Part shown: positions 1,018 to 39,196 of the stretch, in pieces
How the letters are laid out: each line of letters starts with the position of its first letter
Position numbering within the stretch: the first letter of the stretch is position 1
Source: Lachnospiraceae bacterium M18-1
GTDB taxonomy: Bacteria > Bacillota > Clostridia > Lachnospirales > Lachnospiraceae
DNA length: 64,000 nucleotides
Reading direction: 5' to 3'
Assembly (NCBI GenBank): GCA_000403295.2
Contig: KE159609.1
Location: 314,142-378,141, forward strand
Made by a program: the position numbers and the translations under genes
Notes under the pieces: generated by a model
What the model was told of the DNA's origin: nothing
Database searches by the model: none
What the model saw: the letters and a program-made list of their open reading frames with translations, nothing else

Positions 1018-2739
<1,722 letters not shown>

Positions 2740-2794
2740 CTATATTATACCACATACCGCTGCCTGTGTCATGTATAAAATGTGAAGAAACGCC

Positions 2795-2962
2795 CTATTT
2801 CCGGGCGTTTGCGGGGTTCAGCTCCATGTCCTTGCGAATGAGCTTCTTTATCTTTTTATCCAGTGTGTCCGTTGCGCGTTCACTTGCGGACGAACATACA
2901 AGGTAAGTAACTTTTCCGATTTTATGCTCCGTTGTGGTAACGGGCGTCTGGTTTTGCGTCAA
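2795..2962 (-). CDS. TnpW-family transposon protein
   Basis: A 55-residue protein: TQNQTPVTTTEHKIGKVTYL, then SSASERATDTLDKKIKKLI. This is the typical TnpW form found immediately upstream of large serine recombinases in Clostridia elements. Its function is not established; an accessory role in excision is plausible. I choose the TTG at 2962, since AAAGGGGG lies nine bases upstream, over a longer frame beginning at 3022. Confidence 0.75.
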   Translation of the reverse strand: MTQNQTPVTTTEHKIGKVTYLVCSSASERATDTLDKKIKKLIRKDMELNPANARK

Positions 2963-3022
2963 AGAAAATCCCCCTTTCTTTCGCAAACATATAATACAGT
3001 CTATGAATAGCAGCAAGTCCAC

Positions 3023-3436
3023 TATTCAAGAAAACAAAGGCTTTAATCGGACGGTTATTAGCATAACCTCATGGGAATTTCACCCCGGCATGGTTCTCAT
3101 GCAGCCCTACCCATTGCCTGCGACGCTCTTAACGCTCGGACTGTGGCTGTAAGGAAGTATCATTGTATATTTTGCGTGTCGTCGCCCGCAAGCCGCTACA
3201 CTTGCTTTCCGGCGCGGTGTTGGTCGCTCGGCTGTCCGGGCGGGGATAACCTCACCCGGATAGCGTCATGGCGCACCCACCGTATGGCTCGGCGCAAAAG
3301 GAACGTATCCGATTTGCCCTATGCTGCGCCGCCGTTATCTTGCGCCGCTTTCTTTGTCAAGGTTCAGAATGGCTTTGCTGCCGCGTCAGCAGCGGAACGG
3401 AAAAGGGGGAGAGAGAAAGCGTCCCGCCGCTGCGGT
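3023..3436. other. Non-coding GC-rich stretch with hairpins
   Basis: About 410 bp with no credible gene between the HTH protein and TnpW, although neighbouring genes are tightly packed. Several hairpins are visible, for example GCATGGTTCTCATGC near 3088 and a CCGGG...CCCGG stem near 3237-3258. It lies in the minus-strand transcription path and could be a structured RNA or a long leader before tnpW and the recombinase. No named RNA family is recognised. Confidence 0.45.
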
Positions 3437-3703
3437 TTATTCCTCTGCCTTAAAGGTGAGGACAGCCATCATCAGTTTTGCTTGCAGCCGTTCCCGAATG
3501 TCGTGGTCTACGCCAAAATAGACGTTCCCGCGCTCGTCGTACAGCTTCCGCATGGAGAGGCGGGCTATGTAGCCGCTGAAATGCTGCAAGACAATCTTCA
3601 TAGCGTCCGGGTCGCCCTTTGTCGCTGCCAAAATGACAGGATAGGGAACAAGGGCTTTTTCCGGGTAGCCGGGTTCGTTACCATTCGTCCCATTCATCAG
3701 CAT
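3437..3703 (-). CDS. HTH_16-type helix-turn-helix regulator
   Basis: An 88-residue protein with the conserved pattern of small conjugative-transposon HTH proteins: PVILAATKGDPDAMKIVLQH, then GYIARLSMRKLYDERGN, then DIRERLQAKLMMAVLTF. Such proteins accompany sigma-like factors in Tn916/Tn1549-type elements and probably control element genes. The start overlaps the end of the sigma-like gene by 26 bp; GGAGG precedes it and either the first or third ATG could be used. Confidence 0.8.
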   Translation of the reverse strand: MLMNGTNGNEPGYPEKALVPYPVILAATKGDPDAMKIVLQHFSGYIARLSMRKLYDERGNVYFGVDHDIRERLQAKLMMAVLTFKAEE

Positions 3704-4109
3704 TTTCCTCCAGATATTTTTTTAGCAGCTCAAAAGAGCTTGTCCGCCTGTACTGTATCGTGCTTCTCGACGTATCGAACAGCTCCGCAATCTCGGTGTC
3801 GTTCATTCCCTCGAAATAGTACAGGAGTACGGCTTTGCGCTTTTCTTCCGGCAAAGTACGGATTGCTTCAAGAAGCAGCTTCGGCGTGATTTTCTTCCCG
3901 GCTCTTTCAAAGGCGATTTCCCCTTTGAAATATTCATCAAAGGTATGAAGCTGCCGCGCTTCTTCTAAGGTCAAGTCGGAAAAGGTAATCTCCCTTGCCT
4001 TATGCCTGTGCAGCTCTTTGTGAGCGTCACACGCTTCATTGTGCAGTACCGTATTACAAAACTTCTGGAAAGCGCACTGTTTTATAAACTCCCTGCGATT
4101 AGGTTCCAC
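3678..4109 (-). CDS. Sigma-70-like regulator (region 4)
   Basis: A 143-residue protein with a sigma region 4 helix-turn-helix: LPEEKRKAVLLYYFEGMNDT, then EIAELFDTSRSTIQYRRTSS. It resembles Tn916 Orf7-type RNA polymerase sigma-like regulators. The GTG at 4109 is preferred because AAAGGGGGTGAGAAT precedes it; the longer frame to 4232 has an unlikely Phe/Lys-rich start. It probably directs transcription of recombination or transfer genes (inference). The next gene overlaps its end, suggesting translational coupling. Confidence 0.85.
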   Translation of the reverse strand: MEPNRREFIKQCAFQKFCNTVLHNEACDAHKELHRHKAREITFSDLTLEEARQLHTFDEYFKGEIAFERAGKKITPKLLLEAIRTLPEEKRKAVLLYYFEGMNDTEIAELFDTSRSTIQYRRTSSFELLKKYLEENADEWDEW

Positions 4110-4284
4110 ATTCTCACCCCCTTTCTCGTTGGAAAGTTGGTGGTGCTTCCCCCTTTTCGCGGGGCAATACTGCCTTTTGAAAAAAACGCCGAAGATTTTC
4201 GGATTTTTTTCAAAAAATTTTTTGAGCAGCAAAATACGCCTGTCCGAAAAGCCCGGACAGACGTATAGGTATTGTAAGCGGTAT

Positions 4285-4645: not shown

Positions 4646-5635
4646 TTATTTTTGTTGTTTTTTGGCTTTATTATATGTATTAGCTAACTGTCCACAAGCT
4701 GCTTTAATCTCTCTACCATGAGAAACTCTCATGGTAACTTCAAGTCCTGTTTGCTCTAATTGATGTTTGAACGCAACCATTTCTTGTTTTTGTGGTGCTC
4801 TAATTTTTGAATTACTCGTCGGGTTGTATTGCAGCACGTTAATCATAACATTTTTGCCCTTAAACCATTTTGCAAGTTGCCTTATATCTGAGGAACGGTC
4901 ATTTATACCTGGTAAAAGCAAATACGCAAATACCACTTTTCGATTATGCCTTTGTGAATAGGACAATGCTTGCTTAACAACATCTTCAATAGCGTACATG
5001 TGCATATGAGGAATGATGCAGTTTCTCGCAGCCTGTGTTGCTGCATGTAAAGATATTGTCAACTGAATTTTTAGATGTTCTTCGCGCAATTTTTTTAATT
5101 GATTAACTGGACCAACTGTTGATACGGTAATGCCGTCGGTTGGAAAGTTAAGTCCATTTCTATCTCGAAGAATATGGATTGCTGCAATCAAGTTGTCGTA
5201 ATTGAATAAAGGTTCTCCCATTCCCATAAAAACGATACGATTTACTTTTTGACGTATCAATATGACCTGTTGCACAATTTCAGATGGTGTTAGATTACGA
5301 ACGAAACCATTGCGTCCGGACTCACAAAAAATACAGCCAACAGAACAACCAACTTGCGTACTTACGCAAACAGTCCCACCATCTCGCCGTTTAATAAAAA
5401 CCGTTTCGATATACCTGTTGTCTTTCAATTCATAAACATACTTTTCAGTATCGCTACTTTTATAGACTTTTTTTGTTGATATTGATAGATTTTTTTTGTG
5501 AAATGGCTGTTTATACAATTCCGCATATAAGGCTCTTGCTTTATCCTCTCCAATTACTTCCGACATTTCTTTGTAAGTAAATCCGTATGGGTCATTCAAT
5601 ATTTCCGTAAGTGTACTTTTAGGTAAGTGTTTCAT
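4646..5635 (-). CDS. RlmN/Cfr-family radical SAM rRNA methyltransferase
   Basis: A 329-residue radical SAM enzyme. Family members methylate A2503 of 23S rRNA at C2 (RlmN) or C8 (Cfr, antibiotic resistance). Visible features are the cluster motif CSVGCIFC, the upstream CVSTQVGC cysteine, FMGMGEP, and AACGQL near the C-terminus, so both mechanistic cysteines of the family are present. LLPGINDR and YNPTS look more Cfr-like, whereas MGMGEP is RlmN-like; neither subgroup is matched closely. It lies one base after the KTR gene, in an AT-rich cargo block behind an attenuated promoter. Acquired ribosome protection is a reasonable inference, but the methylated position cannot be read from sequence. 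Confidence 0.85.
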   Translation of the reverse strand: MKHLPKSTLTEILNDPYGFTYKEMSEVIGEDKARALYAELYKQPFHKKNLSISTKKVYKSSDTEKYVYELKDNRYIETVFIKRRDGGTVCVSTQVGCSVGCIFCESGRNGFVRNLTPSEIVQQVILIRQKVNRIVFMGMGEPLFNYDNLIAAIHILRDRNGLNFPTDGITVSTVGPVNQLKKLREEHLKIQLTISLHAATQAARNCIIPHMHMYAIEDVVKQALSYSQRHNRKVVFAYLLLPGINDRSSDIRQLAKWFKGKNVMINVLQYNPTSNSKIRAPQKQEMVAFKHQLEQTGLEVTMRVSHGREIKAACGQLANTYNKAKKQQK

Positions 5636-5821
5636 TTAATATCCTTCCTTTTGTTTTTCAGAGTTTTTGATTATGATTTCTAATTTTTCAACATCAATGA
5701 TATGTGTTAATTTACATTTAGGGCAGAAAAGAGGAAAATTTCTTAATACCGTATTATAAAATACTTGAACCCTCGTCTTTCCGTTACAAATTGGACATTT
5801 TATCCAATATTTTTCAAGCAT
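5636..5821 (-). CDS. Cysteine-rich KTR zinc-ribbon protein
   Basis: A 61-residue protein with two CxxC pairs, CPICNGKTRV and CPKCKLTHII, matching the KTR family found with resistance genes in Tn916-type elements. It probably binds zinc; its function is unknown. ATG 5821 is preceded by AAAGGAG. The gene directly precedes the radical-SAM methyltransferase with one base between them, so the two are translated from one message. A terminator hairpin lies right before its ribosome binding site. Confidence 0.8.
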   Translation of the reverse strand: MLEKYWIKCPICNGKTRVQVFYNTVLRNFPLFCPKCKLTHIIDVEKLEIIIKNSEKQKEGY

Positions 5822-5840: not shown

Positions 5841-5880
5841 AAAAAAATACAGGTCAATTCTCAACATGAGCATTGACCTG
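5841..5880 (-). terminator. Attenuator terminator 2 before the KTR gene
   Basis: CAGGTCAAT (5850-5858) pairs with ATTGACCTG (5872-5880). On the minus strand the stem is followed by TATTTTTTT. It sits between the leader region and the KTR ribosome binding site, so it would stop transcription before both genes unless read through. Further inverted repeats upstream (5901-5961) could form alternative folds. Confidence 0.75.
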
Positions 5881-5981
5881 CATTTATACATATAACACTA
5901 CAACAAAATTAAGGCATAGTTTTTATACTATGTCTATACATCGTTAGTTTTGTTGTATAGCATACGCAAAATAAGCATGAC

Positions 5982-6005
5982 AAAAAAGCCCATATTGAAA
6001 ATGGG
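5982..6005 (-). terminator. Attenuator terminator 1 after the leader peptide
   Basis: On the minus strand CCCATTTTCAATATGGG is followed by CTTTTTT, a compact intrinsic terminator about 25 bases after the leader stop. The leader-coding sequence (6030-6056) is partly complementary to 5955-5979 beyond it, so a structure enclosing this hairpin can form. Ribosome stalling in the leader could change which fold forms. Confidence 0.75.
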
Positions 6006-6029
6006 AAAAATCTTTTTTGATTTCAATGC

Positions 6030-6056
6030 TTATCGAATACGCATGCTATGTAACAT
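6030..6056 (-). CDS. Macrolide-type leader peptide MLHSMRIR
   Basis: An eight-codon ORF, MLHSMRIR, with a strong ribosome binding site (AAAAGGGGG eight bases upstream). An in-frame ATG at 6062 would add two residues but lies too close to that site. The Arg-X-Arg ending matches the macrolide arrest motif (+X+) and closely resembles the known leaders ErmDL (MTHSMRLR...) and MefAL (MTASMRLR). It lies just downstream of a consensus promoter and upstream of two terminators. Inference: macrolide-stalled ribosomes permit readthrough into the KTR and methyltransferase genes. Confidence 0.75.
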   Translation of the reverse strand: MLHSMRIR

Positions 6057-6079
6057 AAACATTTCCCCCTTTTAATAAT

Positions 6080-6108
6080 ACTATACAAAAAAAGCGGCTA
6101 ATTGTCAA
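6080..6108 (-). promoter_or_regulatory. Promoter of the attenuated cargo operon
   Basis: Read on the minus strand, TTGACA (6108-6103), a 17-base spacer and TATAGT (6085-6080) form a near-consensus sigma-A promoter. Transcription would start about 6073, only a few bases before the leader's ribosome binding site. Confidence 0.85.
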
Positions 6109-26215: not shown

Positions 26216-28763
26216 ATGAGGTAAGCGCCTCGTGGACGCTCCCTCCCGAACCGTGCGGGCACCTCTCGATGCACACGGCTCTCCATATGCCATCAACTAA
26301 CAAAATCAGTCTTTTCCGTGTATCTCACGGTGGCACGCCGGGCATACTGCCAGCGTTTTCCTATGGTTCTTTAACATAACTTTTTCCCACTCATATTTAC
26401 CGCTAAGGCTTTTCAGCCGTTTCACCTGATGAATCTCCACGTCATTTGTGTACTGTCCGCAGAGTTCACAGGTTTTGGAGCGCAGTTTTGCCGCTATGCG
26501 GTTCGGTTTATCATACCGCTTATAGGCGGGCAGGATATCTGCCTGCGGCACATTAGGCTTGTCCTTGCGGATAAAAGGCCCTCTGTAAAATACGCTCTCC
26601 TTCATACCGCCTTTTGTCTTATAAATGACTGTAAACCGTCCATTTCTGAAATATCTCTTTTTGATTTTTCTGGTCTTTGTGCGGTATTTATTTGCGAATG
26701 TTTTCAACATACTATAATGCATTAAACTCGCATACTTGCTCATTGCGCATACATTACATGCCAGTGAGTAATAGTTGTACAAACCTCTGATTTCAGAGTT
26801 GTACTTTGACAGGATTTCGATATCCTTACGGTTAATGAGCTGTGGTCTGTGAATGGCTTTCCAATGCTCTTTTTGTGTAACTTTGTCCTTCTTGATACGG
26901 ATTGCGCCATACTCCAACAGTTTTGATTCCCATTTTTCATGCGGCATGTATAACTTTACTGCGCCGCTGTACCCCTTCACTTTCCTGCCTTGGCGTTTTG
27001 TGATTTCCCGGCTCTTTGAAATAGAGATATCATAGCCGAGGAATCTCGCCCGGTCAGTAGCATAGGTGATTTTGGTTTTCTCCACTGACAGCGTAAGGTT
27101 TAATTTTTCTTTGAGGAATACAGCAAGGTCTGCTTTTAATTCTTCCGCATCCCTTTTGCTCCCGATAATGCTTATGATAAAGTCATCCGCATAACGGACG
27201 TATTGCAGGTTTTTATAGGTTTCATCCCTGAACTGCTTAGACGGGATTTCCCTCTGTTTCTCCCGCAGTCTGCGTAATTCCCCGGCACGTTCTTTCTTTT
27301 CGGCTTCGGTAAGCGTATCCCATACTTCCCTGTTCTGGCGCATGAACTTCTGCACTTCACGGTTCCGTCTGGCGTATTCCGGGTTCACTTTACGGTTTAC
27401 CCGGTTCCCTTTTATAAAGCCTTCTTTGTATTCCTCCACATACATATCCAATTCATGCAGGTAAATATTTGCCAATATGGGACTGATACCGGAACCCTGC
27501 GGAGTGCCGCAGTAAGTCCTGTTGTACTGCCATTGTTCCATATATCCGGCTTTCAGAAATTTCCACATCAATGAGATAAAAGCTTCGTCATCAATGCGCC
27601 TGCGCAGAATATCAATGATAACATGGTGGTCGAAGCTGTCAAAACATGCCTGAATGTCACCTTCCACAAACCAGTTTGCCCCCGCAAATGTCCGCTGTAT
27701 CTGTTCGAGGGCTGTATGGCAGCTCCTTTTCGGGCGGAATCCGTGGGAATAGTCGGAGAAGGTTGGCTCATAAATGCTTTCCAATATCATTCGGACTACT
27801 TCCTGCACCAGCTTGTCATCCCCGGAAGGAATCCCAAGCGGACGCTTCTTACTGCTGTTTTTCTTTGCAATATATGTACGCCGTGCAGGTTTTGGGCGGT
27901 AAGAACGGTCTTTTAATGCGCTGATGATACGCTCTATTCTCGGACTGCTCATTCCGTCCAGTGTTTCACCATCCACACCCGGCGTCATGCTTCCCTCATT
28001 GGCGTAGATATTTCTATATGCCAAAAGGTAAAACTCCGGGTTGTACAGGTTCCGGTAGAGCCTTTGGAACCTATACGATAAATCTTTAGACTGTTTGTTT
28101 AGGCTATTCAATACATCAGTTGGATTTCTCATGATGCCTCACGCACCTTCCTTTCTTTCTCTGTATTAAAAGCATACTGCTCCCCTTCGTCATGTGGGCG
28201 GCTCTCCCGCTTCCGTTTTTACGGCTATCCCTGTAAATCCAGAGTCCACGGGCTACTATGGGAGCTGTGTAACCATGCCCGCATATGGGCGGGTTTAGGT
28301 CATCCCCGGTAGCGTATGCCATACTTAGCGTTCCGTGTTGTCGGTAATCTTTGTAGATATGTGGCGTTCGCCGTTCAACCTAATCTAAGGCTTGCCCTGC
28401 TTTGGATATCGCACGTCTGCCGACGATTGAGCGACAGACGCCAAAGCACCGTGCGTTTCATCTTCTTTCGCACGTAGGCCAGATACTCCCAGGCTCCGGC
28501 TACCAATCAAGCAGTTTAGCTTTCATCCTCATACACGGATTTTCATCCCCACATAAAACAGCGGTTAGAAGATTGCGCCGTTTTATGCCAGTTATAGCGT
28601 TAATAGTGGCGGCTATAACAACGACATGCTACACTCCCCAGAGGGTTTCCCCTCACGGATAAGTCGTGGAATGATAGACTATAAATTTTCACCGTCCTTT
28701 CTTTGATATCTTTGTCTACCGCTTGCTAAAGGCGGTTTATGGCATACACCCTAACGGGCGCAC
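26216..28763 (-). mobile_element. Group II intron B in virD4
   Basis: The 5' end on the minus strand is GTGCGCCCG (28763 downward), directly after codon ATA. The 3' end is ...CTTACCTCAT with a likely branch-point A, before GAC. A domain V hairpin of the form AGAGCCGTGTG...CGCACGGTTC lies near 26245-26283. A maturase/RT is encoded inside. Removing the element restores the frame exactly, so splicing should permit VirD4 production. Confidence 0.88.
26306..28132 (-). CDS. Group II intron B reverse transcriptase/maturase
   Basis: A 608-residue multifunctional intron protein. The reverse transcriptase core contains KKRPLGIPSGDDKLVQEVVR, GTPQGSGISPILANIYLH and the catalytic YADD box in VRYADDFIIS. 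A maturase X domain follows, then a C-terminal HNH-type endonuclease with CELCGQYTNDVEIHQVKRL and CPACHREIHGKD. All motifs look intact, so the intron may still be mobile and splice-competent. It differs clearly from the proteins of introns A and C. Confidence 0.95.
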   Translation of the reverse strand: MRNPTDVLNSLNKQSKDLSYRFQRLYRNLYNPEFYLLAYRNIYANEGSMTPGVDGETLDGMSSPRIERIISALKDRSYRPKPARRTYIAKKNSSKKRPLGIPSGDDKLVQEVVRMILESIYEPTFSDYSHGFRPKRSCHTALEQIQRTFAGANWFVEGDIQACFDSFDHHVIIDILRRRIDDEAFISLMWKFLKAGYMEQWQYNRTYCGTPQGSGISPILANIYLHELDMYVEEYKEGFIKGNRVNRKVNPEYARRNREVQKFMRQNREVWDTLTEAEKKERAGELRRLREKQREIPSKQFRDETYKNLQYVRYADDFIISIIGSKRDAEELKADLAVFLKEKLNLTLSVEKTKITYATDRARFLGYDISISKSREITKRQGRKVKGYSGAVKLYMPHEKWESKLLEYGAIRIKKDKVTQKEHWKAIHRPQLINRKDIEILSKYNSEIRGLYNYYSLACNVCAMSKYASLMHYSMLKTFANKYRTKTRKIKKRYFRNGRFTVIYKTKGGMKESVFYRGPFIRKDKPNVPQADILPAYKRYDKPNRIAAKLRSKTCELCGQYTNDVEIHQVKRLKSLSGKYEWEKVMLKNHRKTLAVCPACHREIHGKD

Positions 28764-29206
28764 TATCGTTTCTTTTCCTAAAATTTCCGATATTTCTTTA
28801 AGGGTGGTTTTCTCCTTGCCGCCCAAGAAAAGCGTGGTGTCGCAGTTGCCGACTATGGTATCGGCGTTGTCTTTGTAAATGGCTTTTAGCTGTGACTGGC
28901 TCTGCAAGATGATTGACGCGGATATTTCCCGGCTCCGTATCGTTGCAATGAGCTTTTCAAACTTTGGTATCTGCCCGATATTCGCAAATTCATCAAGTAA
29001 GCACCTAACATGGACGGGAAGCCGCCCGCCGTATTCATCATCTGCCTTGTCACAAAGCAAGTTGAATAGCTGTGTGTAAAGGATTGAAACGACAAAGTTA
29101 AAAGTGTCGTCGGTGTCGCTGATGATGACGAAAAGGGCGGTCTTTCTGTCGCCTATGGTGTCAAGCTCCATTTCGTCGGTTTCCATAAGCTCCCGCAGCT
29201 CCTTAA
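28764..29206 (-). CDS. VirD4-type coupling protein, exon 2
   Basis: Middle coding segment (residues about 342-489). It starts with TT completing an Ile codon begun in exon 1, giving FD-I-KELRELM across the junction. It contains TALFVIISDTDDTFNFVVSI, then the Walker B region VRCLLDEFANIG and ATIRSREISASIILQSQSQL, and ends at KETI before intron B. Confidence 0.88.
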
Positions 29207-31995
29207 ATAGCGATAGGTAATCCTTTGATGTTATCTCTGGATTTTCCCCCGCCCTAAACCGGGCGTGAACCTTTCAGCTCACCCGGCTTGCCATCAGGAA
29301 CAGATTTTATTTCATCTCAATAACTCTCAACGTGGATAAGGCTTCTTAACTTGTTGAGTTTTTCTTTCTGCTTTTGGTCAAGTTTAAAGGTTTCCATATA
29401 TTTCTTGATAATATCAGGGTTTGTGGCATGGATTAAGCGATGCATATCTTCGCATACCAGTATCAGATTCTGATAGTTGTCTTTCCCGCCTAAGTGCCGT
29501 GGCACTTTGTGATGGCAGTGAATATCACCAATCGAAAGCACCCTGCCAGACACAGCGCATTTTCCCATTTGTGCCGAATACAGCGAAAGCCTGTTATCGT
29601 TGTATTCGATAGAACGGTACAGAACAGGATTCCTCATCAGGTAATGAAGAACTGTCATGTCGATTCTGTCCAGATTCTTATGGATTTCGGCTCTGCCTTC
29701 CGGCGTATAGGAATTGATTTTGCGCTTCATGGACTTCGGGGGCTTGTGCCGTATGTAACCAATCGGGACAACTGCGTGTCCGGCTACATATCGGAGCTGT
29801 CTGCTTTTTCCGTACCGTTCCCTGATAACTTTCGATACTTCACATGGAATCTTCCTTTTCCTGACCTGTTTTTCAGTTTTTACACGTTTTTTCAATCTTG
29901 CCCGCAGGCTCTTGTGGACAGATAAGGCGAATGGTGCAAGGTCGTCGCAGACCTTTGTGGCTAATTGGTAATAATCATGGATTCCCATTACATAGGCGTT
30001 ATAGCGACAAATCGCTTGATATTCAGTACGCCTACCCTGTGACGGGAACTCAATGTCATAAATCAGCCGTTTTAGGTTTGGTTTTATTTTCGCAATAGAT
30101 TTCTCCCTGATATGGCTTTCCACTACATATTTGGTATTCCCATTGCTCCGTTTCCCACGAGGGATAACCTTTAGCTTGAAACCAAGAAACTCTGAATACT
30201 GCTCTTTCAGGTTAATCACCTTTGATTTTTCAGGACTGATTTCAAGCGAGAGCCTTTCATGAAGCCAACTTTTGGTTGCGTGGAATAATTTCACCGCATT
30301 TTGATAGCTGTTCGTAAATATCTTAAAATCATCAGCGTATCGGACGCAGGTGACTTCTTTCAGTCTTGTCCTCCGCAGTGCGGCGAATTTATGGCTCTTG
30401 CTCACGCTTCCATTGTAATTGACAGATTCCTTGTAAGGGAACTCCGTTGGTATTTCTTCCCATTGGCTGGCAAGCCACCAATCCAATTCGTTTAGAACTA
30501 CATTGGACAGCAGGGGAGAGATAATACCTCCCTGCGGCGTACCGACCTCCGGGAATCCTATCCCGGCTACCTCCGCTTTTAGCATAGCTGATATAATACT
30601 AAGCAGCTTCTTGTCACGGATTCCCATTGTCCAGAGCTGTTTGAGCAGTTTTCCGTGATTCACGTTGTCAAAGAACCCTTTAATGTCTATATCTACGACA
30701 TAGTGGAGATTGCTTCTCTGCATATTTTTGTGAACCTGAGCGATTGCGTGCTGTTGGTTCCGATTAGGGCGGAATCCATAGCTGTGGTCGTGGAATTTCG
30801 CCTCACATATCGGCTCCATGACCTGCAATACGCACTGTTGTATCAGCCTGTCCATAATCGTTGGTATTCCAAGCGGGCGTTTCTTTGCCGGGTCATTCCC
30901 TTTTGGGATTTCTACCCGCCGGACGCTTTGCGGAACATACCAGTCTAATTTGCGCTGTACGGCGCATATAAGCTGCTCATCAGAGAGTGTTGATAATTCT
31001 GTGATTGTTTCTCCGTCCGTACCAGGCGTCATGCTCCCGTGGTTTTTCTTGACGCTGCGGTATGCCAGCCGTATATTTTCGGGTAATGCAATGATTTCAA
31101 CCAGATGTTTGAAAACTTTGCCTTTGTTGCTGTCGGCATACAGCTTATCTTGAATTGCCTGGAAGTCATAATACTCGGCGTGTCTTATCTTATCTTTCTT
31201 CTTTGCCTTTCCTGTTGCCATAGTCGGTTACTTATCCCCACTTTCGTTTGGATTTTCGCCTTTCTTAGTCCTACTCGAACCTATGCGTGTTTATTGAATA
31301 TGGTTTTGTTTCTGTTCCTGACTACAGCCCGTCCCTCCGCCGCTTACTTTATTCACGGCTTCACAGGTAGCATGGCTGCTCTTTCCTCCCGGATTAAGAA
31401 CGGTTATACCGCACCTCCCGTAAAGGCGGCACGGTTTTCCCGCCCATTGCTTCACTGTGCGTATCCACTCCACATCCGGGGCTTTCCACGTTCCGATATT
31501 CCTATCTTTGCATAATACCCTTAACCCTGCCCTTTAGGCCTGTATGCTTGATGATGCCTGTAACACCATAGGGAATTTCATATCGACAAATCTTACTTTA
31601 CCCCACATACGCCGTTTTCACGGCTATGGCATTTCTACCATATCCCGTTATAGACCTGTACATTCGGGCTTTTGTCAGCGGTAGTCAGCCGCATTCTGGA
31701 CATAGGTACTTTATAGACCTCCGGCCTAACACCCCCGGCCACCTCTGGCTCGGTTTTGCTTTATCCCCAAAGGGGACAGTCGCGGGTGCAGACAGCCGAC
31801 TTCAGCGTGCTGTGTCAGTCGCGGGAAATACGTCCCGTTTCTTCCAACGCAGTATCAAGGGAAGCGTTTCAGGGCGTTACCCCGTCATTCCACTTCTCGG
31901 AATATCAGTTAGAAAGGCCGTAGCCTTTCCGTCACTTTTACCTCTTTGCAGGAAAATCCCACGTAGAGTTTATATGCGACAACGTGTCGCTGCAC
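29207..31995 (-). mobile_element. Group II intron A in virD4
   Basis: The 5' end is GTGCAGCGACACG (31995 downward) and the 3' end ...TTACCTATCGCTAT at 29207. A domain V hairpin AAGCCGGGTGA...TCACGCCCGG lies near 29250-29290. The boundaries were chosen because they restore the conserved FDIKELRELM frame; shifting them breaks it. The intron is 2789 bp and encodes its own RT/maturase. Confidence 0.85.
29317..31221 (-). CDS. Group II intron A reverse transcriptase/maturase
   Basis: A 634-residue intron protein. It shows KKRPLGIPTIMDRLIQQCVL, GTPQGGIISPLLSNVVLNEL, the catalytic VRYADDFKIF, an X/maturase region and a C-terminal HNH endonuclease domain (DIHCHHKVPRHLGGKDNYQN, then ILVCEDMHRLIH). The N-terminus contains the usual SMTPGTDGETI. 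Apparently intact. It is unlike the protein of intron B, so the two introns arrived separately rather than by local duplication. Confidence 0.95.
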   Translation of the reverse strand: MATGKAKKKDKIRHAEYYDFQAIQDKLYADSNKGKVFKHLVEIIALPENIRLAYRSVKKNHGSMTPGTDGETITELSTLSDEQLICAVQRKLDWYVPQSVRRVEIPKGNDPAKKRPLGIPTIMDRLIQQCVLQVMEPICEAKFHDHSYGFRPNRNQQHAIAQVHKNMQRSNLHYVVDIDIKGFFDNVNHGKLLKQLWTMGIRDKKLLSIISAMLKAEVAGIGFPEVGTPQGGIISPLLSNVVLNELDWWLASQWEEIPTEFPYKESVNYNGSVSKSHKFAALRRTRLKEVTCVRYADDFKIFTNSYQNAVKLFHATKSWLHERLSLEISPEKSKVINLKEQYSEFLGFKLKVIPRGKRSNGNTKYVVESHIREKSIAKIKPNLKRLIYDIEFPSQGRRTEYQAICRYNAYVMGIHDYYQLATKVCDDLAPFALSVHKSLRARLKKRVKTEKQVRKRKIPCEVSKVIRERYGKSRQLRYVAGHAVVPIGYIRHKPPKSMKRKINSYTPEGRAEIHKNLDRIDMTVLHYLMRNPVLYRSIEYNDNRLSLYSAQMGKCAVSGRVLSIGDIHCHHKVPRHLGGKDNYQNLILVCEDMHRLIHATNPDIIKKYMETFKLDQKQKEKLNKLRSLIHVESY

Positions 31996-33019
31996 TGTCG
32001 AATGGGGCTAACCTCGCGCCGCATGAGATAAGTATGCTTTTTGCGGTCTTGCCCGCCGCAAGTTTGTATTTTTTGTACTGCTTGACTGCAAAATGTTCCG
32101 GGTCTTTTTCTTCCAGACGTTCAAACATGAGGTCAACCGGGTTCTGGAAATCCTCGTCGTCCTCGCGGGCTTCCGACGCATTTATCATCTCAAGCAGCGT
32201 CGTGAAGTTCTTCTCGTCCTCCGGGGCTTCATACCAGATGTAGCCGATTAGCGCGGTGTAGTAGAGCTTTTCCGCTTTCACCCAGAAATCCTCGCCGGAT
32301 TTTTCCCCGTCGCCTTTGGTGTTGGCGATAATGGTATTGACTAACTTCAAAATGTCCTTTTCGCTCCGCAGATAGGCAAAGGGATTGTATTTCATGGATT
32401 TTTTGAAGTTAATCGTATTTAGCACTTTGATACGGTATTTGTACCGCTGTAACATTTTCCCGGTTTCCAAAATCAGTGTTCCTTTCGGGTCAGTGACGAT
32501 ATACGACGTTGGAAAATCCTTTGACGTACATTGCATGAGCGACGGTTTCACAAAGAACCGGGTCTTGCCGCTGCCGGAACCGCCGATTACAAGGATATTT
32601 TTGTTTCTTGCGTATTTCGGCTGCTTCGGGCGGCTGTTCATGGTGAGCCGTTCCGTCTGCGTTAAGGGGATATTGTTCTCAAATACCGGGTCGGTGTACG
32701 GCTTTATGTCGTCAGCCCCGCCCCAACGCGCCGAACCGTATTCTGTCCCGCGGCGGTATTTCTTCGCGTTCTTGCCTTTGGTGTAGATAATCAGCCGGAC
32801 AATGACCGCCCCCGCAATGCCTAAAGCTAAGTCTGCCGGGTGGAAGCTCGGCGCGATACTGGAAAAGGCGGCGGTAAAACCGTCCCCAAGATGTAGCAGC
32901 TTTGCGCTTGCGTCCGCGCCGGGGGAGAGCCGGACAGCCGCGCCCACTTTATCAAAGAGCCAGACAAAGAGCAGATACGGGAGATTTAGGATAAGCAGCT
33001 TCTTGATTTCCGGCTTCAT
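31996..33019 (-). CDS. VirD4-type coupling protein, exon 1
   Basis: First coding segment (residues 1-341 plus one base) of the type IV coupling protein, which brings the relaxosome to the channel. Two N-terminal membrane helices (about 8-25 and 62-80), then EYGSARWGGADDI and Walker A GGSGSGKTRFF (146-156). The exon ends in ISCGARLAPFD plus A. It overlaps the upstream PcfB gene by four bases. Expression of full-length VirD4 needs splicing of two introns. Confidence 0.92.
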
Positions 33020-33492
33020 AGCGATACCTCCCTGTCCTTGTTCTTGACCTTTGCCCGTTCCGCGTTTCTGCCCTGTGCAGCTTCTTTGAGGGTAGAGAGC
33101 AGCTTTCGGATTGAGGGCTTTTTCTCCTGTGTCAGCTTTTTTGCGGAAAATTCCTTAAAGGCTGCGGTCAGTACGTCCGCGTCCCGCCCCTTGAAGAAAA
33201 CCAGATAGCGGGGCGGGCTTTCCGTCGCGTCCTTTTTCAGCGCAAAGTCGATACCGTACTTTTTCGCCGTACTCTCAAAGGCTTTGATATTGCCCTCGGT
33301 AATCTCAATGTTGGAAACGCCCGCGTTCTGCTTCATAAGCTGCTTTAAGCTCTGCTTGCCCTGTGGCGGTTTTGCAAGCTGCTTTTTGCCCTTTGACAGT
33401 ATGGCTTTCATTGCCTTTTGGAGCGTCTGCGCGGTCAGCTTCCCGGTCTTGATGTAAAGGGCTATGGTCTTTTCGTTTACTTCGTCCTGCAA
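33016..33492 (-). CDS. PcfB family (DUF3801) protein
   Basis: A 158-residue protein with the DUF3801/PcfB layout: an N-terminal helical region (KLTAQTLQKAMKAILSKGKK), a central domain with EITEGNIKAFESTAKKYGID and RYLVFFKGRDADVLTAAFKE, and the basic tail KPSIRKLLSTLKEA. PcfB of pCF10 is a relaxosome accessory factor that interacts with the coupling protein; this gene directly precedes virD4, which fits. Its C-terminal tail is shared with several other proteins here. Confidence 0.88.
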   Translation of the reverse strand: MQDEVNEKTIALYIKTGKLTAQTLQKAMKAILSKGKKQLAKPPQGKQSLKQLMKQNAGVSNIEITEGNIKAFESTAKKYGIDFALKKDATESPPRYLVFFKGRDADVLTAAFKEFSAKKLTQEKKPSIRKLLSTLKEAAQGRNAERAKVKNKDREVSL

Positions 33493-33533
33493 TTTGTCGC
33501 GTCCTCCTTTCGCGTTTCTTTATGGGGCGGCGG

Positions 33534-33755
33534 TCAGATACGCACCCGCAGCCCGTTCAAGTCCTCGGCTCTGATACCCACAAGATACCAGTTGTCGCCG
33601 TACTCAATCCGGGTCGGCTTCCACTTGCCCCGCACGAATACGTCAAAGCACTCGCCGCAATGCAAGCCCCCGTAGTAGCTGTTTAAGTCAAAGCGGATGT
33701 CGTAACGGTCGGTGCGCTCGTCAAATACCAATGCTCCTGTCATTTTCTGTGCCAT
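33534..33755 (-). CDS. DUF5348 family protein
   Basis: A 73-residue protein (MAQKMTGALVFDERTDRYDI, then GECFDVFVRGKWKPTRIEYG and NWYLVG) typical of DUF5348, a small beta-rich family found in ICE operons. Its function is unknown. The ATG at 33755 follows AAAGGAGG; the longer frame upstream runs into the preceding gene and is rejected. Confidence 0.82.
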   Translation of the reverse strand: MAQKMTGALVFDERTDRYDIRFDLNSYYGGLHCGECFDVFVRGKWKPTRIEYGDNWYLVGIRAEDLNGLRVRI

Positions 33756-33786
33756 AATAAAATCCTCCTTTTGTGGTTGTGGGTGG

Positions 33787-34770
33787 TTACAGGCTTTCGC
33801 CCTCATTGCATGAATAATAGTCCGGGTCGCCGTACTGCGGCTTTTTCGGTGACAGTGCGCCGCTTGCCATGTCATGGGCGACAAGGGAAGTGTAGTAGTT
33901 GCCGATTGTGGACGGGGCGTTGAAAAGGGCGGCTTTCAGATATTGCTTGATGTTGCGGATTTTGGTTGTGTTCTCCCGCATACAGTCAAGCACAAAGCGG
34001 ATATGCTCGCCGTCTAGTTTCATAAACTTTGACTTCACAAGCTCTGCCGGGTAGTCGTCCCCCGCAATCCGTACCCGCTTTCTGGCGGTGCATACGGTTT
34101 CAAGCATGAGGTCTACAATCTCGTCCAGCCTGTCACTGTCAAACTTCATGTCCTGTTTGAGAATGTGGTAGTCGATATTGTCCTTGATGATTTCCCGGTA
34201 TATATCAACTGCGCTCTGTGCTGCCGCTTCCGTTCCTTTCCGTTCCGGCGGCGCAGCCGCTTCTCTGCAAGGAGAGGGGTTAGGGGAAAGGATAGGAATG
34301 GAATGGGTACTTGATAAATCTGTATTTGATTTTTCTTTTTTTGGTAAGTCAGTTCTTTGTATATCTTTATTTAATTGCGTTGGATTTTCCAACGTAGGTT
34401 TTTCCAATGTTGGTTTTTCCTGCATTGGATTATCCAATGTTGGATTTTCCAATGTAGGTAAATCCGGCGTAGGCGGCTGCGGCTGCTCGAATATCACATA
34501 GTCCGCGCCCCGCAAGCGTCCTTTCTCGTCGCGCTCCCTTGAACGGACGATATACCCGGCGCGTTCAAGTTCCTTAATGGCTTCGCGGATAGCGTCTATC
34601 TTCTCCCGGTTGATAAGGGATAAGCCTTTCAAGGTGTAGTCCCAATCTTCGGGGAGTGACAGCATTTGCGACAACAGCCCCTTTGCCTTTAGGGAAAGCT
34701 CCTTGTTGCGTAGGTGGTGGTTGCTCATTACGGTATAGCCCTTGTTTCGTTCCACTCTGAAAACTGCCAT
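33787..34770 (-). CDS. Replisome organiser-like HTH protein (DUF6017 type)
   Basis: A 327-residue protein, first gene of the transfer operon. The N-terminal winged-helix domain (about 1-100) contains NKELSLKAKGLLSQMLSLPE and LERAGYIVRSRERDE, as in phage/ICE replisome organisers. A linker with a five-residue repeat (PTLEN-type, about 105-135) follows, then a C-terminal domain with LKQYLKAAL-like sequence of the DUF6017 type. It may support replication of the excised circle. The start has AAAGGAG upstream. Confidence 0.8.
   Translation of the reverse strand: MAVFRVERNKGYTVMSNHHLRNKELSLKAKGLLSQMLSLPEDWDYTLKGLSLINREKIDAIREAIKELERAGYIVRSRERDEKGRLRGADYVIFEQPQPPTPDLPTLENPTLDNPMQEKPTLEKPTLENPTQLNKDIQRTDLPKKEKSNTDLSSTHSIPILSPNPSPCREAAAPPERKGTEAAAQSAVDIYREIIKDNIDYHILKQDMKFDSDRLDEIVDLMLETVCTARKRVRIAGDDYPAELVKSKFMKLDGEHIRFVLDCMRENTTKIRNIKQYLKAALFNAPSTIGNYYTSLVAHDMASGALSPKKPQYGDPDYYSCNEGESL
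34377..34460 (-). repeat. Fifteen-base tandem repeat in the replisome organiser gene
   Basis: Imperfect copies of a TTGGATTTTCCAATG-like 15-mer code for repeated P-T-L-E-N/K units in the linker of the protein. Copy number could vary by slippage without breaking the frame. Confidence 0.7.
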
Positions 34771-34797
34771 AGTTCATAGCTCCTTTGCTTTGGATTT

Positions 34798-34909
34798 GTT
34801 ACGCAGTAGAAGCGCGGTTTCGGGGGATAAGGTATAAATCCCTTTCCGCGCCAGATACGCGCCCGGAAAACCGCTTGTAGCAAGGCTTTTTCTGCCCCTA
34901 CTGCGTAAC
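34798..34909 (+). repeat. 112-bp direct repeat, copy 2
   Basis: Second copy of the unit at 8847-8958, with identical 12-bp inverted ends GTTACGCAGTAG and CTACTGCGTAAC and partly conserved interior (GGGGG-ATAAGGTATAAA, CGCCCGGAAA). It lies 28 bp upstream of the first gene of the transfer operon, so it is well placed for the operon promoter or operator. Confidence 0.85.
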
Positions 34910-34918
34910 AAAGGGCAT

Positions 34919-34969
34919 GAAAAAAGCGGCGTTCCTGTTCTCCCATGTAGAGAGTAAGAAACGCCGCTT
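34919..34969 (-). terminator. Inward-facing terminator at right end of inner ICE
   Basis: AAGCGGCGTT (34924-34933) pairs with AACGCCGCTT (34960-34969); on the minus strand the stem runs into TTTTTC. It would block transcription entering the element from the right, shielding the transfer operon from outside promoters. Confidence 0.7.
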
Positions 34970-35070
34970 CTGCGTCGTATTCAGTTTTTAGTACAATACC
35001 CTGCTTGTCCGTCGCTCGAAAAACCTTGATTTTCCAGTGTTTTCAAAAGTATCGTTATCTAACGTCAGCT

Positions 35071-36738
35071 TTCCAAAGACCAAGTTTCCAGAATATGATA
35101 AAAGACATTGAAAGCGGTCTGATAAACTGCGTGATTACGAAAGATTTATCCCGTCTGGGGAGAAACTATCTTGATTGTGGGTTATATCTGGAAGTTTTCT
35201 TCCCAGAGCATAACGTGAGGTATATAGCGGTCAATGACGGCGTAGATACCTTGAATAAATCTGCTATGGACATCACGCCTTTCCGCAACATTTTAAACGA
35301 AATGTATGCCGCTGACATATCTGTTAAGATAAAATCGGCATATCGGGCGAGGTTTCAACAGGGGAAATTCATGGGAACTACCGCCCCTTATGGCTATATC
35401 AAAGACCCTGCCGACCACAACCATCTGCTGATAGATGATAAAGTGGCACATGTTGTAAAAGAGATATTCGACCTTGCATTAAAAGGGAATGGAGTTGCCA
35501 AAATTTGCAGACATCTTAATAAACAGCATATCCTACGCCCTGCCGCTTATGCGGCGGAGCGTGGCGAAACAGGCTTTGAACGTCATTTTGAGGGGAACGA
35601 GGACAAACGCTATATTTGGAGTGGGAACAGCGTGAGGAGCATTTTAAGAAGCCCGATATATGCGGGAAATCTTGTAGGCTACAAACGGATTGCCGCCAAT
35701 ATGAAAAGCAAGAAACGCCCCTCTAAGCTGCCCGAAGAATGGGAAGTGATACCCAATACCCATGAGGGAATAGTCACGCAGGAGGAATTTGATATTGTCC
35801 AACAGCTTATTACAAGTCGTAGGCTTCCACAGAACAAGGGAGGATTTGTAAATATTTTTGCAGGCGTTATCAAGTGTGTGGACTGCGGATGTGCTCTGCG
35901 GGCAATGAACGTACACAGGAGGAAACGCCCAGAGATTATCGACTGTGTACAGTATTCATGTAATAATTATGCAAGAAACGGAAGAAGCGAGTGTAGTGCC
36001 CACAATATAGAAGCAAGGGATTTATTCAATGCCGTTCTTGCCGACATCAACTGTTTTGCGGATATGGCAGTGAATGATGAAAAGGCGGTCAGGGCCATAG
36101 AAAAGCGGCTCACGGAAACAGACCAGAGCAGGGCGAAAGCATTAGAGAAAGAACGTAAGAAGCTGAACAAACGCCTTGCGGAACTGGACAGGCTGTTTTC
36201 CTCTCTCTACGAGGATAAGGTCATGGAGCGTATTACCGAGCGGAATTTTGAGATGATGTCGGGGAAATACCAGAAAGAGCAGCTTGAAATTGAAGCAAGG
36301 CTGAAAGAGGTGACGGAAACTCTTAATGAAAGCTACGAGAAATCACGGGGAATCCGTGACTTCCTCGCCCTTATCCGAAATTATCAAGGCTTAAAAGAAC
36401 TGGATGCAACAGTTATAAACGCACTCATAGACAAGATACTTGTTTCGGAGCGTGAGAAGATGGCAGACGGAACAGTGAAGCAGGAAATCAAGATTTACTA
36501 TAAATTCATCGGCTTTGTCGATGAATTACATATCATACCTACAAAACGGTGGGCAGCAATGCCCGCTAAAAATTGTACGGTGTGCGGCGTTGAATATGTC
36601 CCGGGCTCTGGTGCATCAAGGTATTGTCCTGCTTGTGCCAAGAAGATACGGAGGGAGAAATCAAACGAGAGCAAACGCAGGAGCAGAGAACAGAAAAGGA
36701 TAGCATGTATGAACTGTCCGCAAAAAATGACCGACTGA
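35071..36738 (+). pseudogene. Large serine recombinase, 3' part, split by inner ICE
   Basis: Continuation of the gene begun at 763. The frame resumes at F-QRPSFQNMI, continues through [20 protein letters not shown], a recombinase domain (about 180-280), a zinc-ribbon region (CVDCGCALRAM), a long coiled coil and an unusual extra C-terminal zinc ribbon (CTVCGVEYV...YCPACAKKIRR), and stops at 36736-36738. Without the first 64 residues, including the catalytic serine, it is inactive. An ATG at 35005 in inner-ICE DNA gives an open frame but no catalytic domain. Confidence 0.9.
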
Positions 36739-36841
36739 TTTGGAGCAGCAGGAGGGCCGGATTCTTAGGCAGGGAAACCAGAATGACAAGGTACAGATTT
36801 ACAGATATGTTACTGAAAATACATTCGACGCCTACATGTGG
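36737..36841 (+). pseudogene. SNF2/methylase-type helicase fragment before intron C
   Basis: Thirty-five codons in frame, DLEQQEGRILRQGNQNDKVQ, then IYRYVTENTFDAYMW. This is the conserved C-terminal helicase motif VI region (QxxGRxxRQG) of the large SNF2/N6-methylase proteins of Tn1549-like ICEs. The upstream part of the gene is separated by the middle element and lies outside the window. The first codon GAT overlaps the recombinase stop TGA, marking the junction. Confidence 0.85.
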
Positions 36842-39196
36842 GTGCGACACGAAGTCGCTTAATTTAACTGTTTGGCGGCAATGCCGACCAAACCATCCAT
36901 TCCGTTGGATGAAGCCGTTGTCCCCGGCTCTGCCAGTAATGGCACTGTTCGGAAGCGGACATAAACGTAACCCTATTTGGAATCCAAACCGTGAGGGGAG
37001 GATGAAGCTGCGAGCTGCAATGCGGTTAGGGTGCAGGCTTTTACTGATAGCATGGTTAATTAACTGAATCGCCGTAAGCTTCGTTAAGGCTGAACAAGCC
37101 AAAGCAGCTGACAGGCTTGAACCAAAAGGTGTGCAGTCGGTTACTCCTCTCCACGCTTGGGAGTACACGGACGTTATGACTGCCGGAGTAGAGGCGGAAC
37201 CTAAACTATCAAAATAATTGTTGGTTAAGTGGAACGTGTCAAGCCCGTATTCCTGCCCATAGGGCAAGCCGACCGTAAGGGAAGCCGTTGGGAATGCGGG
37301 TATAGGATTGCGGAAGAAGCGAATGCCGACCTTGTAATGAGGACGGACAGGGGTTCAAAATTTGCCCCACCCGAAAGGGTGCCCAATTCCGCAGGGTGCT
37401 TGATTACGAGAGAGTTTATAGAATTTTTGAAAGGAGTAAGGCAAATGAACGGTAAAACGTGTGCGACTTCTGACATTGCAAAGGCATGGGAATCCATCGA
37501 CTGGAACAAAGCCGAAGCATATGTTAAAAAACTGCAAATGCGTATCGTAAAGGCTCATCAACAGGGCAGGACAGGCAGGGTGAAATCTTTGCAGTGGCTG
37601 CTCACACACTCTTTTTATGGACGTGCTTTAGCTGTAAGAAGGGTAACGAGTAATAAAGGTAAAAAGACAGCAGGCGTAGACAAAGTTTTATGGTCTACCC
37701 CAAAACTGAAATACGAAGCAATTCTCGATTTGAAACGCAGGGGTTACAAGCCACTGCCACTAAAAAGGGTGTATATACCGAAGAAAAACGGGAAAATGCG
37801 CCCGTTAAGCATTCCATGCATGAAGGACAGGGCAATGCAGACATTATATAAATTTGCATTGGAGCCGATTGCGGAAACCACAGCCGACCCGAATTCCTAT
37901 GGATTCCGGGCGAAAAGATGTGTACAGGACGCTATCGAGCAGTGCTTTACCTGTCTGAATAAAGGGAAATCACCAAAATGGGTGCTGGAAGGCGACATTA
38001 AAGGCTGTTTTGACAATATCAGCCATGAGTGGATTCTGAATCACATCCCAATGGATAAAGACATTCTGCGGAAATGGTTAAAAAGTGGGTATATCGAAAC
38101 AGGGAAGTTATTTCCGACGAATTTGGGAAGCCCACAGGGTTCATCTATCTCACCAACTATCTGCAACATGGTATCAGATGGTCTGGAAGTCCAGATTAAG
38201 AAGAAATACCACAAAACGAAAGTAAATGGGAAAGCATATTTTCCGAAAGTGAACTTTGTGCGTTATGCTGATGATTTTATTGTCACTGGCGAAAGCAAAG
38301 AGATTCTGGAAAATGGCGTGCTTCCCATTATCCGGGAATTCCTGTCAGAGAGGGGGCTGGAACTGTCGGAAGAAAAGACAGTCATTACCCATATCGAAGA
38401 TGGGTTTGATTTTCTCGGAAGCAATATAAGGTGGTACAAAGACAAACTTCTGACGAAACCGTCCAAAAAGAATTATAAAGCCATAGTGAGCAAGATAAGG
38501 GAGATAATCAAGAAGAACCCGTCCATGAAACAGGAAGATTTGATACGGAAGCTGAATCCGGTTATCCGTGGGTGGGTAAATTTCCAAAAGTATAATGTTT
38601 CGTCACAGGCATTTGAAAGATTTGATTTTGATGTGTGGAGATGTCTATGGCAGTGGTGCAGACGCAGACACCCTAAAAAGAGCCATAAATGGATAGCAAA
38701 GAAATATTTCAGACAGGTTGGCACGAGAAGCTGGACATTCAGCGTTAAAACGTCTGATTCGTTTGAACTCAACCTGATTTATGCCACTAATACAAAAATC
38801 GTAAGGTGGCTGAAAACAAAATCAGAAGCGACGCCATTTGACAGCAGGTTTGCAGGATATTTTGAAGAAAGAGATACAGAGAGAATGTTTCGTGAAATCA
38901 AGGGCAGAAGGAAGCTGAATGCCCTCTACAAAGCACAAAAAGGAATCTGCCCTATATGCGGCGGTGCTATCACAGTAGAGGAAGGGTACAGAATCCATGA
39001 AGCCACGGGGAACGATTATAAGATAACAAGAATTTTAGTAGACACAGGCTGTCACAGAAAACTGCATTACTCAAAAGAAGTTGGTGAACCGGCTCTGGTG
39101 ATACAGGGCTTATAAGTGCTTGAGCCGTGTGAGGGGAAACTCTCATGCACGGTTCTTAGAGGGGAAAGCGGTAGTAATACCGCTGACCTACTCGAC
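36842..39196 (+). mobile_element. Group II intron C in the helicase gene
   Basis: The 5' end GTGCGACACGAAG follows TAC ATG TGG; the 3' end is ...CTACTCGAC before CAG ATC. A domain V hairpin (GAGCCGTGTGAGGGGAAACT...) is at about 39121-39157 and a domain VI stem AGCGGTA-TACCGCT follows. Removal joins YMW to QILENKQKF, the expected family sequence. It is 2355 bp and encodes an RT/maturase. Confidence 0.9.
37445..39115 (+). CDS. Group II intron C reverse transcriptase/maturase
   Basis: A 556-residue intron protein starting MNGKTCATSDIAKAWESIDW. It shows KNGKMRPLSIPCMKDRAMQT, GSPQGSSISPTICNMV, catalytic VRYADDFIVTG, maturase X domain features (NPVIRGWVNFQKYN) and a C-terminal HNH-type zinc endonuclease (CPICGGAITVEEGYRIHEAT...GCHRKLHYS). 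The ATG at 37445 is preferred because AAAGGAG lies upstream; the frame is open back to 37229 through ribozyme sequence. Confidence 0.95.
   Translation: MNGKTCATSDIAKAWESIDWNKAEAYVKKLQMRIVKAHQQGRTGRVKSLQWLLTHSFYGRALAVRRVTSNKGKKTAGVDKVLWSTPKLKYEAILDLKRRGYKPLPLKRVYIPKKNGKMRPLSIPCMKDRAMQTLYKFALEPIAETTADPNSYGFRAKRCVQDAIEQCFTCLNKGKSPKWVLEGDIKGCFDNISHEWILNHIPMDKDILRKWLKSGYIETGKLFPTNLGSPQGSSISPTICNMVSDGLEVQIKKKYHKTKVNGKAYFPKVNFVRYADDFIVTGESKEILENGVLPIIREFLSERGLELSEEKTVITHIEDGFDFLGSNIRWYKDKLLTKPSKKNYKAIVSKIREIIKKNPSMKQEDLIRKLNPVIRGWVNFQKYNVSSQAFERFDFDVWRCLWQWCRRRHPKKSHKWIAKKYFRQVGTRSWTFSVKTSDSFELNLIYATNTKIVRWLKTKSEATPFDSRFAGYFEERDTERMFREIKGRRKLNALYKAQKGICPICGGAITVEEGYRIHEATGNDYKITRILVDTGCHRKLHYSKEVGEPALVIQGL

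Follow-up and report, generated by a model that had tools for sequence, protein, structure and literature searches.

Leader peptides of the macrolide type, attenuation and paired terminators are already known from published descriptions of ermD/ermK and mef(E), and macrolide control of a non-Erm rRNA methyltransferase is known from tlrB. The mef(E)/mel attenuator of S. pneumoniae Mega (PMC4335068) is described with an 8-codon leader (MTASMRLR), a long leader hairpin, an intrinsic terminator, and distal repeats that pair once the leader is occupied, all of which resemble the locus studied here. Unlike this locus, it controls an efflux operon and has one terminator, and its antiterminator uses the repeat just behind the leader, whereas the one predicted here uses terminator 1. 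The erm(K)/erm(D) attenuator, compared by its description (PMC4335068, PMC8298421), shares the leader type (MTHSMRLR) and, in erm(K), two adjacent terminators, but regulates an Erm methyltransferase. In Bacillus subtilis tlrB, a macrolide-stalled R-x-R leader attenuates a non-Erm 23S rRNA methyltransferase, as it does in our proposal; however, TlrB is RlmAII (G748) and not of the RlmN/Cfr fold, its leader is MIIQFIRYR, the system responds to tylosin and not to erythromycin, and the stalled ribosome itself is reported to block the terminator, with translation attenuation acting as well (PMC6851288). The Listeria hflXr/rli80 system has an RLR leader ORF and a terminator/antiterminator switch induced by lincomycin and erythromycin, but encodes an HflX-type ribosome-splitting factor (PMC6310831).

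MrmA was described in 2025 as an RlmN-like enzyme carried by Tn6105, Tn6110, and Tn7806 (PMC11983580). In E. coli delta-tolC it is reported to raise the MIC of erythromycin 512-fold and that of streptogramin B 4-fold, with MICs of tylosin, pristinamycin IIA, clindamycin, tiamulin, chloramphenicol, and linezolid unchanged (PMC11983580). The paper covers the enzyme and the MICs, and neither 'leader' nor 'attenuat' occurs in its main text (PMC11983580).

Operon layout and enzyme identity

The window (the whole stretch of 64,000 nucleotides analysed, from Lachnospiraceae bacterium M18-1) contains the following features, listed in the order of transcription.

6080..6108, minus strand: promoter TTGACA-17-TATAGT (TTGACA 6108-6103, TATAGT 6085-6080; 11/12 consensus letters)
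6071-6065, minus strand: ribosome-binding site AAGGGGG, 8 nt ahead of the leader ATG
6030..6056, minus strand: leader ORF MLHSMRIR and stop, ATG at 6056
6024..6060, minus strand: segment 1, leader arm of the OFF hairpin (folding and pair counts)
5981..6019, minus strand: terminator 1, core CCCAT/ATGGG at 6005-5989, then T6 (terminator scanner and pair counts)
5975..5998, minus strand: 5' arm of the antiterminator, i.e. loop and 3' half of terminator 1 with the next bases
5947..5979, minus strand: segment 3, antileader arm of the OFF hairpin (folding and pair counts)
5887..5968, minus strand: hairpin 3+4:5, arms 5968-5927 and 5920-5887, predicted alongside the antiterminator
5861..5881, minus strand: 3' arm of the antiterminator, i.e. 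5' half and loop of terminator 2
5841..5884, minus strand: terminator 2 with T7 tail (hairpin 5884-5846, T run 5847-5841), a short way ahead of the KTR ribosome-binding site
5636..5821, minus strand: cysteine-rich KTR protein (PF14205), 61 aa (profile match)
4646..5635, minus strand: MrmA-like radical-SAM methyltransferase, 329 aa (WP_004607971.1 in NZ_OY725736.1)

The sequence-only reading had proposed the near-consensus promoter and two intrinsic terminators behind the leader, and both proposals held. Between 5401 and 6400, 8 promoter-like sites were found (4.5 in shuffles), of which this promoter ranked highest, and its position would place the RNA start near 6073; in the group of loci at 86% enzyme identity (see below), TTGACA-17-TAAAAT precedes the leader. 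Terminator 1 (6005-5989) was detected by the terminator scanner. Terminator 2, the stronger of the two, escaped the scanner, an internal mismatch being the probable reason, and was present in the unblocked full-length folds of 8/8 sequences. A leader start at ATG 6062 (MFMLHSMRIR) was rejected, as it lies 2 nt from the ribosome-binding site and is missing in the 86% group. Relaxase, MobC-type, and serine-recombinase genes lie near the KTR/mrmA-like operon, which, as judged from these neighbours, is on a putative mobilizable element.

Elsewhere in the window, the Rfam pemK RNA (RF02913, 60.1 bits) was matched at 3069-3166 (minus strand); the genes just above it, at 3437-4232, are of helix-turn-helix and sigma-factor-like types. 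At 26216-39196, group II introns were matched five times, which suggests at least two introns.

Besides the CxxxCxxC motif, a C-terminal cysteine is a criterion of the RlmN/Cfr radical-SAM superfamily. In the window enzyme, Cys97/101/104 of CxxxCxxC and Cys314 align with RlmN 6fz6 and Cfr 9p0p, and by these cysteines the enzyme is assigned to that superfamily. It scored 270.9 bits with the housekeeping RlmN model TIGR00048 (curated cut-off 290), and 191.1 and 197.6 bits with the Cfr models TIGR04432 and NF000424 (cut-offs 550 and 530). Cfr and housekeeping RlmN were both rejected as its identity, the curated cut-offs of all such models having been missed. The description 'Cfr/RlmN-like' in the sequence-only reading does not hold as given: the enzyme is neither of the two and is 86% identical over 326 residues to the MrmA-type protein P0012. 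The forward primer printed in the MrmA paper translates to KRLPKY followed by two bases that would begin a Thr codon (PMC11983580), and P0012 starts with the matching MKRLPKYT. By this match of protein starts, P0012 was taken to be MrmA (WP_002584956.1), and the window enzyme is regarded as MrmA-like by its identity to P0012. MrmA of Tn6105, Tn6110, and Tn7806 (PMC11983580) would by its start belong to the 86% group, whose loci share the leader peptide.

In the enzyme tree, which had 8/21 inner branches well supported and a long-branch warning, 9 leader-bearing rows fell within one group of 16, separate from 8 RlmN-like rows. A separate rlmN over the cut-off was found in 6/6 mrmA-bearing genomes tested, a result that agrees with acquisition of the mrmA-like gene. 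By analogy, the window enzyme would confer erythromycin resistance like MrmA. Macrolide control of the gene had been called unusual; it is instead to be expected, because the enzyme resembles MrmA, reported to raise the erythromycin MIC, and TlrB provides a precedent.

Related loci and conservation of the leader peptide

The survey comprised 54 loci including the window, 48 of them encoding an enzyme of 72% identity or more (minimum 72.7%, in L004). Genomes with an enzyme match numbered 23/397 in the family, 9/392 in the order, 8/391 in the class, and 3/398 in the phylum sets, which overlap. Excluded from the counts were L005-L080 and L085, RlmN-like relatives at most 42% identical (among the best 80 of 590 rows), and L129, L130, and L133-L138 were dropped as repeats of other loci. 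Some assemblies may be represented twice, under different names; L003 and L120 do not differ here.

Leader and terminator 2 were both present in 42/48 loci, representing 10 distinct sequences. Two loci (L113 and L083) had the leader without terminator 2 and were omitted from the alignment for that reason; L083 has about 212 extra bases between leader and gene compared with its relatives, and other sequence at the position of terminator 2. Neither element was found in 4/48: the contig of L101 runs out, and different DNA lies upstream in L095, L081, and L004. In L128, KTR is absent between terminator 2 and the methyltransferase gene. An apparent stop in the L128 enzyme was discarded, as none appeared with a nearer query and the first query probably overran the natural end.

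The attenuator device was found in 0/6 more distant loci (62-65% identity), and no leader of the MLHSMRIR kind was seen in up to 1.5 kb ahead of the gene in L111, L112, L121, L089, and L084. The Paraclostridium bifermentans plasmid L088 (NZ_CP094938.1) carries a 62% relative of the enzyme with a leader of its own, MIINFMRIR, which resembles that of TlrB as published (MIIQFIRYR; PMC6851288). A Mef-like MFS gene, hflX, and the MrmA-like gene stand in a row at 479-4330 of L088, and its hflX has a possible leader, MMVICRGIFFLRLRG, with ATG at 1751. In L112, a Mef(A)-like transporter gene (2533-3750, minus strand; 542 bits to NF000245, cut-off 675) is directly followed by a 63% MrmA relative.

The attenuator DNA matched 16 of 250 genomes searched, beside an mrmA-like gene in 14; the remaining 2 matches were short and were rejected, as chance, as attenuator relatives apart from mrmA. 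The same search of plasmid records returned two mrmA carriers and nothing else. No Rfam family reached its gathering score over the device, and two DNA patterns searched in viral contigs matched only contigs already known as mrmA carriers.

The leader MLHSMRIR had been likened to ErmDL (MTHSMRLR), and this was borne out: H-S-M-R-x-R is common to both, and MLHSMRIR is a short ORF with R/K-x-R/K in the Ser4 context, as the +X+ definition has it. SMR[ILVM]R in an ATG ORF of 6-20 codons occurs at a single site in the 64 kb (one ORF, with two nested starts); across ten mononucleotide-shuffled versions of the window, one ORF of this kind turned up. ErmDL is reported to arrest at Arg6-Leu7-Arg8, codon 7 being in the P site and codon 8 in the A site, Ser4 and Met5 are its erythromycin-critical residues, and in inverse toeprinting with erythromycin all Ser4 replacements but Ala or Gly lowered stalling (PMC8298421).

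The peptides in the 42 loci were MLHSMRIR (38), MLHSIRIRK (2), MLHSIRIWK (1), and MFSYNYI (1). Codon variants were mostly silent (TTA/TTG, CAT/CAC, AGC/TCT, CGT/CGC, CGA/AGA), silent changes being found at Leu2, His3, Arg6, and Arg8 among the window, L114, L003, and L128 (Arg8 is Trp in L128). Outside L119, the amino-acid changes were one Met5/Ile5 and one Arg8/Trp; 13/63 possible single changes in codons 2-8 are silent. Ser4 is encoded by AGC, or by TCT in L128, a telling switch since most Ser4 replacements weaken erythromycin arrest on ErmDL. As judged from these codons, the leader peptide appears largely preserved through silent changes. The leaders of L119 (MFSYNYI) and L128 (MLHSIRIWK) are both without +X+; in L119, MFSYNYI stands in the leader frame in place of MLHSxRIR, and the terminators and antileader are still recognisable.

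It is quite improbable that the leader chiefly senses ketolides, 16-membered macrolides, or streptogramin B and not erythromycin, as the window leader retains the Ser4 and Met5 on which erythromycin arrest of ErmDL depends (PMC8298421) and MrmA resistance is reported as strongest for erythromycin and absent for tylosin (PMC11983580). What speaks for such a spectrum is Ile5 in the L003 and L128 leaders, together with reports that ketolide arrest requires +X+, that the TlrB leader with RYR responds to tylosin and not erythromycin (PMC6851288), and that MrmA also raises the streptogramin B MIC (PMC11983580). Erythromycin-type macrolides are the preferred signal in what follows.

Predicted RNA structures and the proposed switch

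The leader RNA folded at -75.1 kcal/mol (z -7.58), and 0/200 shuffles were as low. The leader and antileader form 30 pairs (6060-6024 with 5979-5947), the core of which is the pairing of the leader strand with 5955-5979 proposed earlier. Folding of the alternative structures also gave an antiterminator joining terminator 1 to terminator 2, which the sequence-only reading had missed. In the fold with the leader blocked to mimic a ribosome at codon 7, the RNA ending in the terminator 2 loop, the 3' half of terminator 1, UCAAUAUGGGC, pairs with GCUCAUGUUGA in the 5' half of terminator 2, and a hairpin of the antileader region sits between the two arms. This helix excludes both terminators. The window antiterminator has 13 contiguous pairs, a run reached by 0/2000 shuffles; the runs of L128, L114, L003, and L119 were matched by 2, 5, 40, and 497 of 2000, respectively. 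In L115, terminator 2 is inverted end for end (33 contiguous bases of L114 recur there in exact reverse complement), which keeps the stem and abolishes the antiterminator; L115 was retained in every pair count.

Pairs were counted in an alignment of the 10 distinct sequences (identical rows merged, few independent lineages), with the helices taken from the window's own fold, so that the counts favour them. Leader/antileader cells were paired in 88.9% of 287 (0/500 shuffles reached this), with 3 pairs changed on both sides (68/500) and a covariation score reached by 18/500. Hairpin 3+4:5 had 92.2% of 268 cells paired (15/500; score 19/500), and the antiterminator 93.9% of 179 (34/500; score 49/500) with 2 pairs changed on both sides (160/500). 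Controls with slid arms gave 28-43% for the antiterminator and 28-54% over all helices counted. The terminators were paired in 94.0% of 284 cells (302/500; score 477/500), and their pairing and covariation show no excess over shuffles. With 10 sequences of few independent lineages, covariation support is thin.

Decayed or chance structure, i.e. AT-rich hairpins ahead of a constitutive gene, would suit the 5/48 loci that, contig end aside, lack the leader, terminator 2, or both (L095, L081, L113, L083, L004). Against the fold z of -7.58, the silent changes that preserve the peptide, and the retention of the device in 42/48 loci, this explanation is highly improbable, and a functional attenuator is preferred.

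With the leader blocked, at the two shortest lengths past the terminator 2 loop, antiterminator probability was 0.90-1.00 in 5/7 sequences. At full length and equilibrium with the leader blocked, terminator 2 reached 0.95-1.00 in the window, L096, L114, and L115; the antiterminator prevailed in L003 (0.92) and L128 (1.00), and L119 had terminator 2 at 0.55 and the antiterminator at 0.09 (at most 0.18 at all lengths tested). Since a blocked leader does not displace terminator 2 from its equilibrium lead in the window, the switch there has to be kinetic. In unstalled RNA, the leader hairpin of the window was already formed at 119 nt (0.97), and at lengths just short of a complete terminator 2 the antiterminator was favoured in the window (0.88-1.00 at 213-217 nt), L096 (0.95 at 218), L003 (0.87 at 210), and L128 (0.64-0.95 at 211-219). 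Blocking the leader raised terminator 1 pairing right after synthesis from 0.07 to 0.34 in the window and from 0.23 to 0.91 in L114; because the block raises this pairing and does not lower it, terminator 1 is doubtful as an independent attenuator. Given its weak early pairing, it may be more an antiterminator donor than a terminator. In sum, exclusive terminator and antiterminator helices were found, their coupling to leader occupancy is predicted, and the full-length equilibrium in the window favours terminator 2.

That equilibrium would also suit a leader working mainly through RNA stabilisation or translation effects, where the stalled ribosome protects the transcript and the terminators are partly relieved; transcript protection alongside attenuation has been reported for mef(E). 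This is improbable in view of the T7 tail directly behind terminator 2, the conserved antiterminator helix, and L128, which retains the device with the methyltransferase gene right after terminator 2.

The reading we hold, with good though not full confidence, is that a macrolide-induced, ribosome-mediated transcription attenuator governs the KTR and mrmA-like operon. The switch parts, their conservation, and the helix exclusivity are read in the sequence, and stalling, timing, termination, drug spectrum, and resistance through the window enzyme are inferred. In the drug-free cell, the ribosome would translate the leader and release, and the leader RNA would pair with the antileader; terminator 1 would then be locked in the long hairpin, terminator 2 would form, and RNA polymerase would halt there, ahead of KTR. 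When a 14-membered macrolide occupies the tunnel, the ribosome would stall at codon 7 (P site, Ile7; A site, Arg8) and mask the leader, and the antileader would pair downstream as hairpin 3+4:5. This hairpin would juxtapose the 5' half of terminator 2 and the 3' half of terminator 1, by then free to pair, and the helix formed between them would preclude both terminators, so that KTR and the methyltransferase would be expressed. The macrolide-induced read-through into these genes predicted earlier thus finds backing for its attenuator logic in the comparative data, in which leader and antiterminator appear conserved.

Implications for a putative RlmN/Cfr-fold resistance gene

In open-licence PMC text, no published mention of MLHSMRIR was found, nor, among the matches listed, of a leader for mrmA. 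To our knowledge, this would be the first RlmN/Cfr-fold gene with a macrolide-type leader, none being present among the literature matches listed. The layout of two terminators with one antiterminator made from halves of both would be new. The chances are about even for a wider proposal: that a single ribosome stall disables both terminators by means of one long-range helix composed of a half of each, that an RlmN/Cfr-fold enzyme is thereby drug-inducible across gut Clostridia, and that the variants MLHSIRIRK, MLHSIRIWK, and MFSYNYI mark changed drug sensing.

The two plasmid records that annotate an mrmA-like gene name it rlmN, a label under which a probable macrolide-resistance gene on mobile DNA can readily escape notice. 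Tn6105, a carrier of MrmA, was reported by a survey of 2021 in 269 C. difficile genomes (31 with a flagged resistance gene) and linked to vancomycin; 'leader peptide' and 'attenuat' are absent from that survey (PMC8307371). A leader of the macrolide type would imply that the drug itself is the signal, and would give independent support for MrmA as a macrolide-resistance enzyme.
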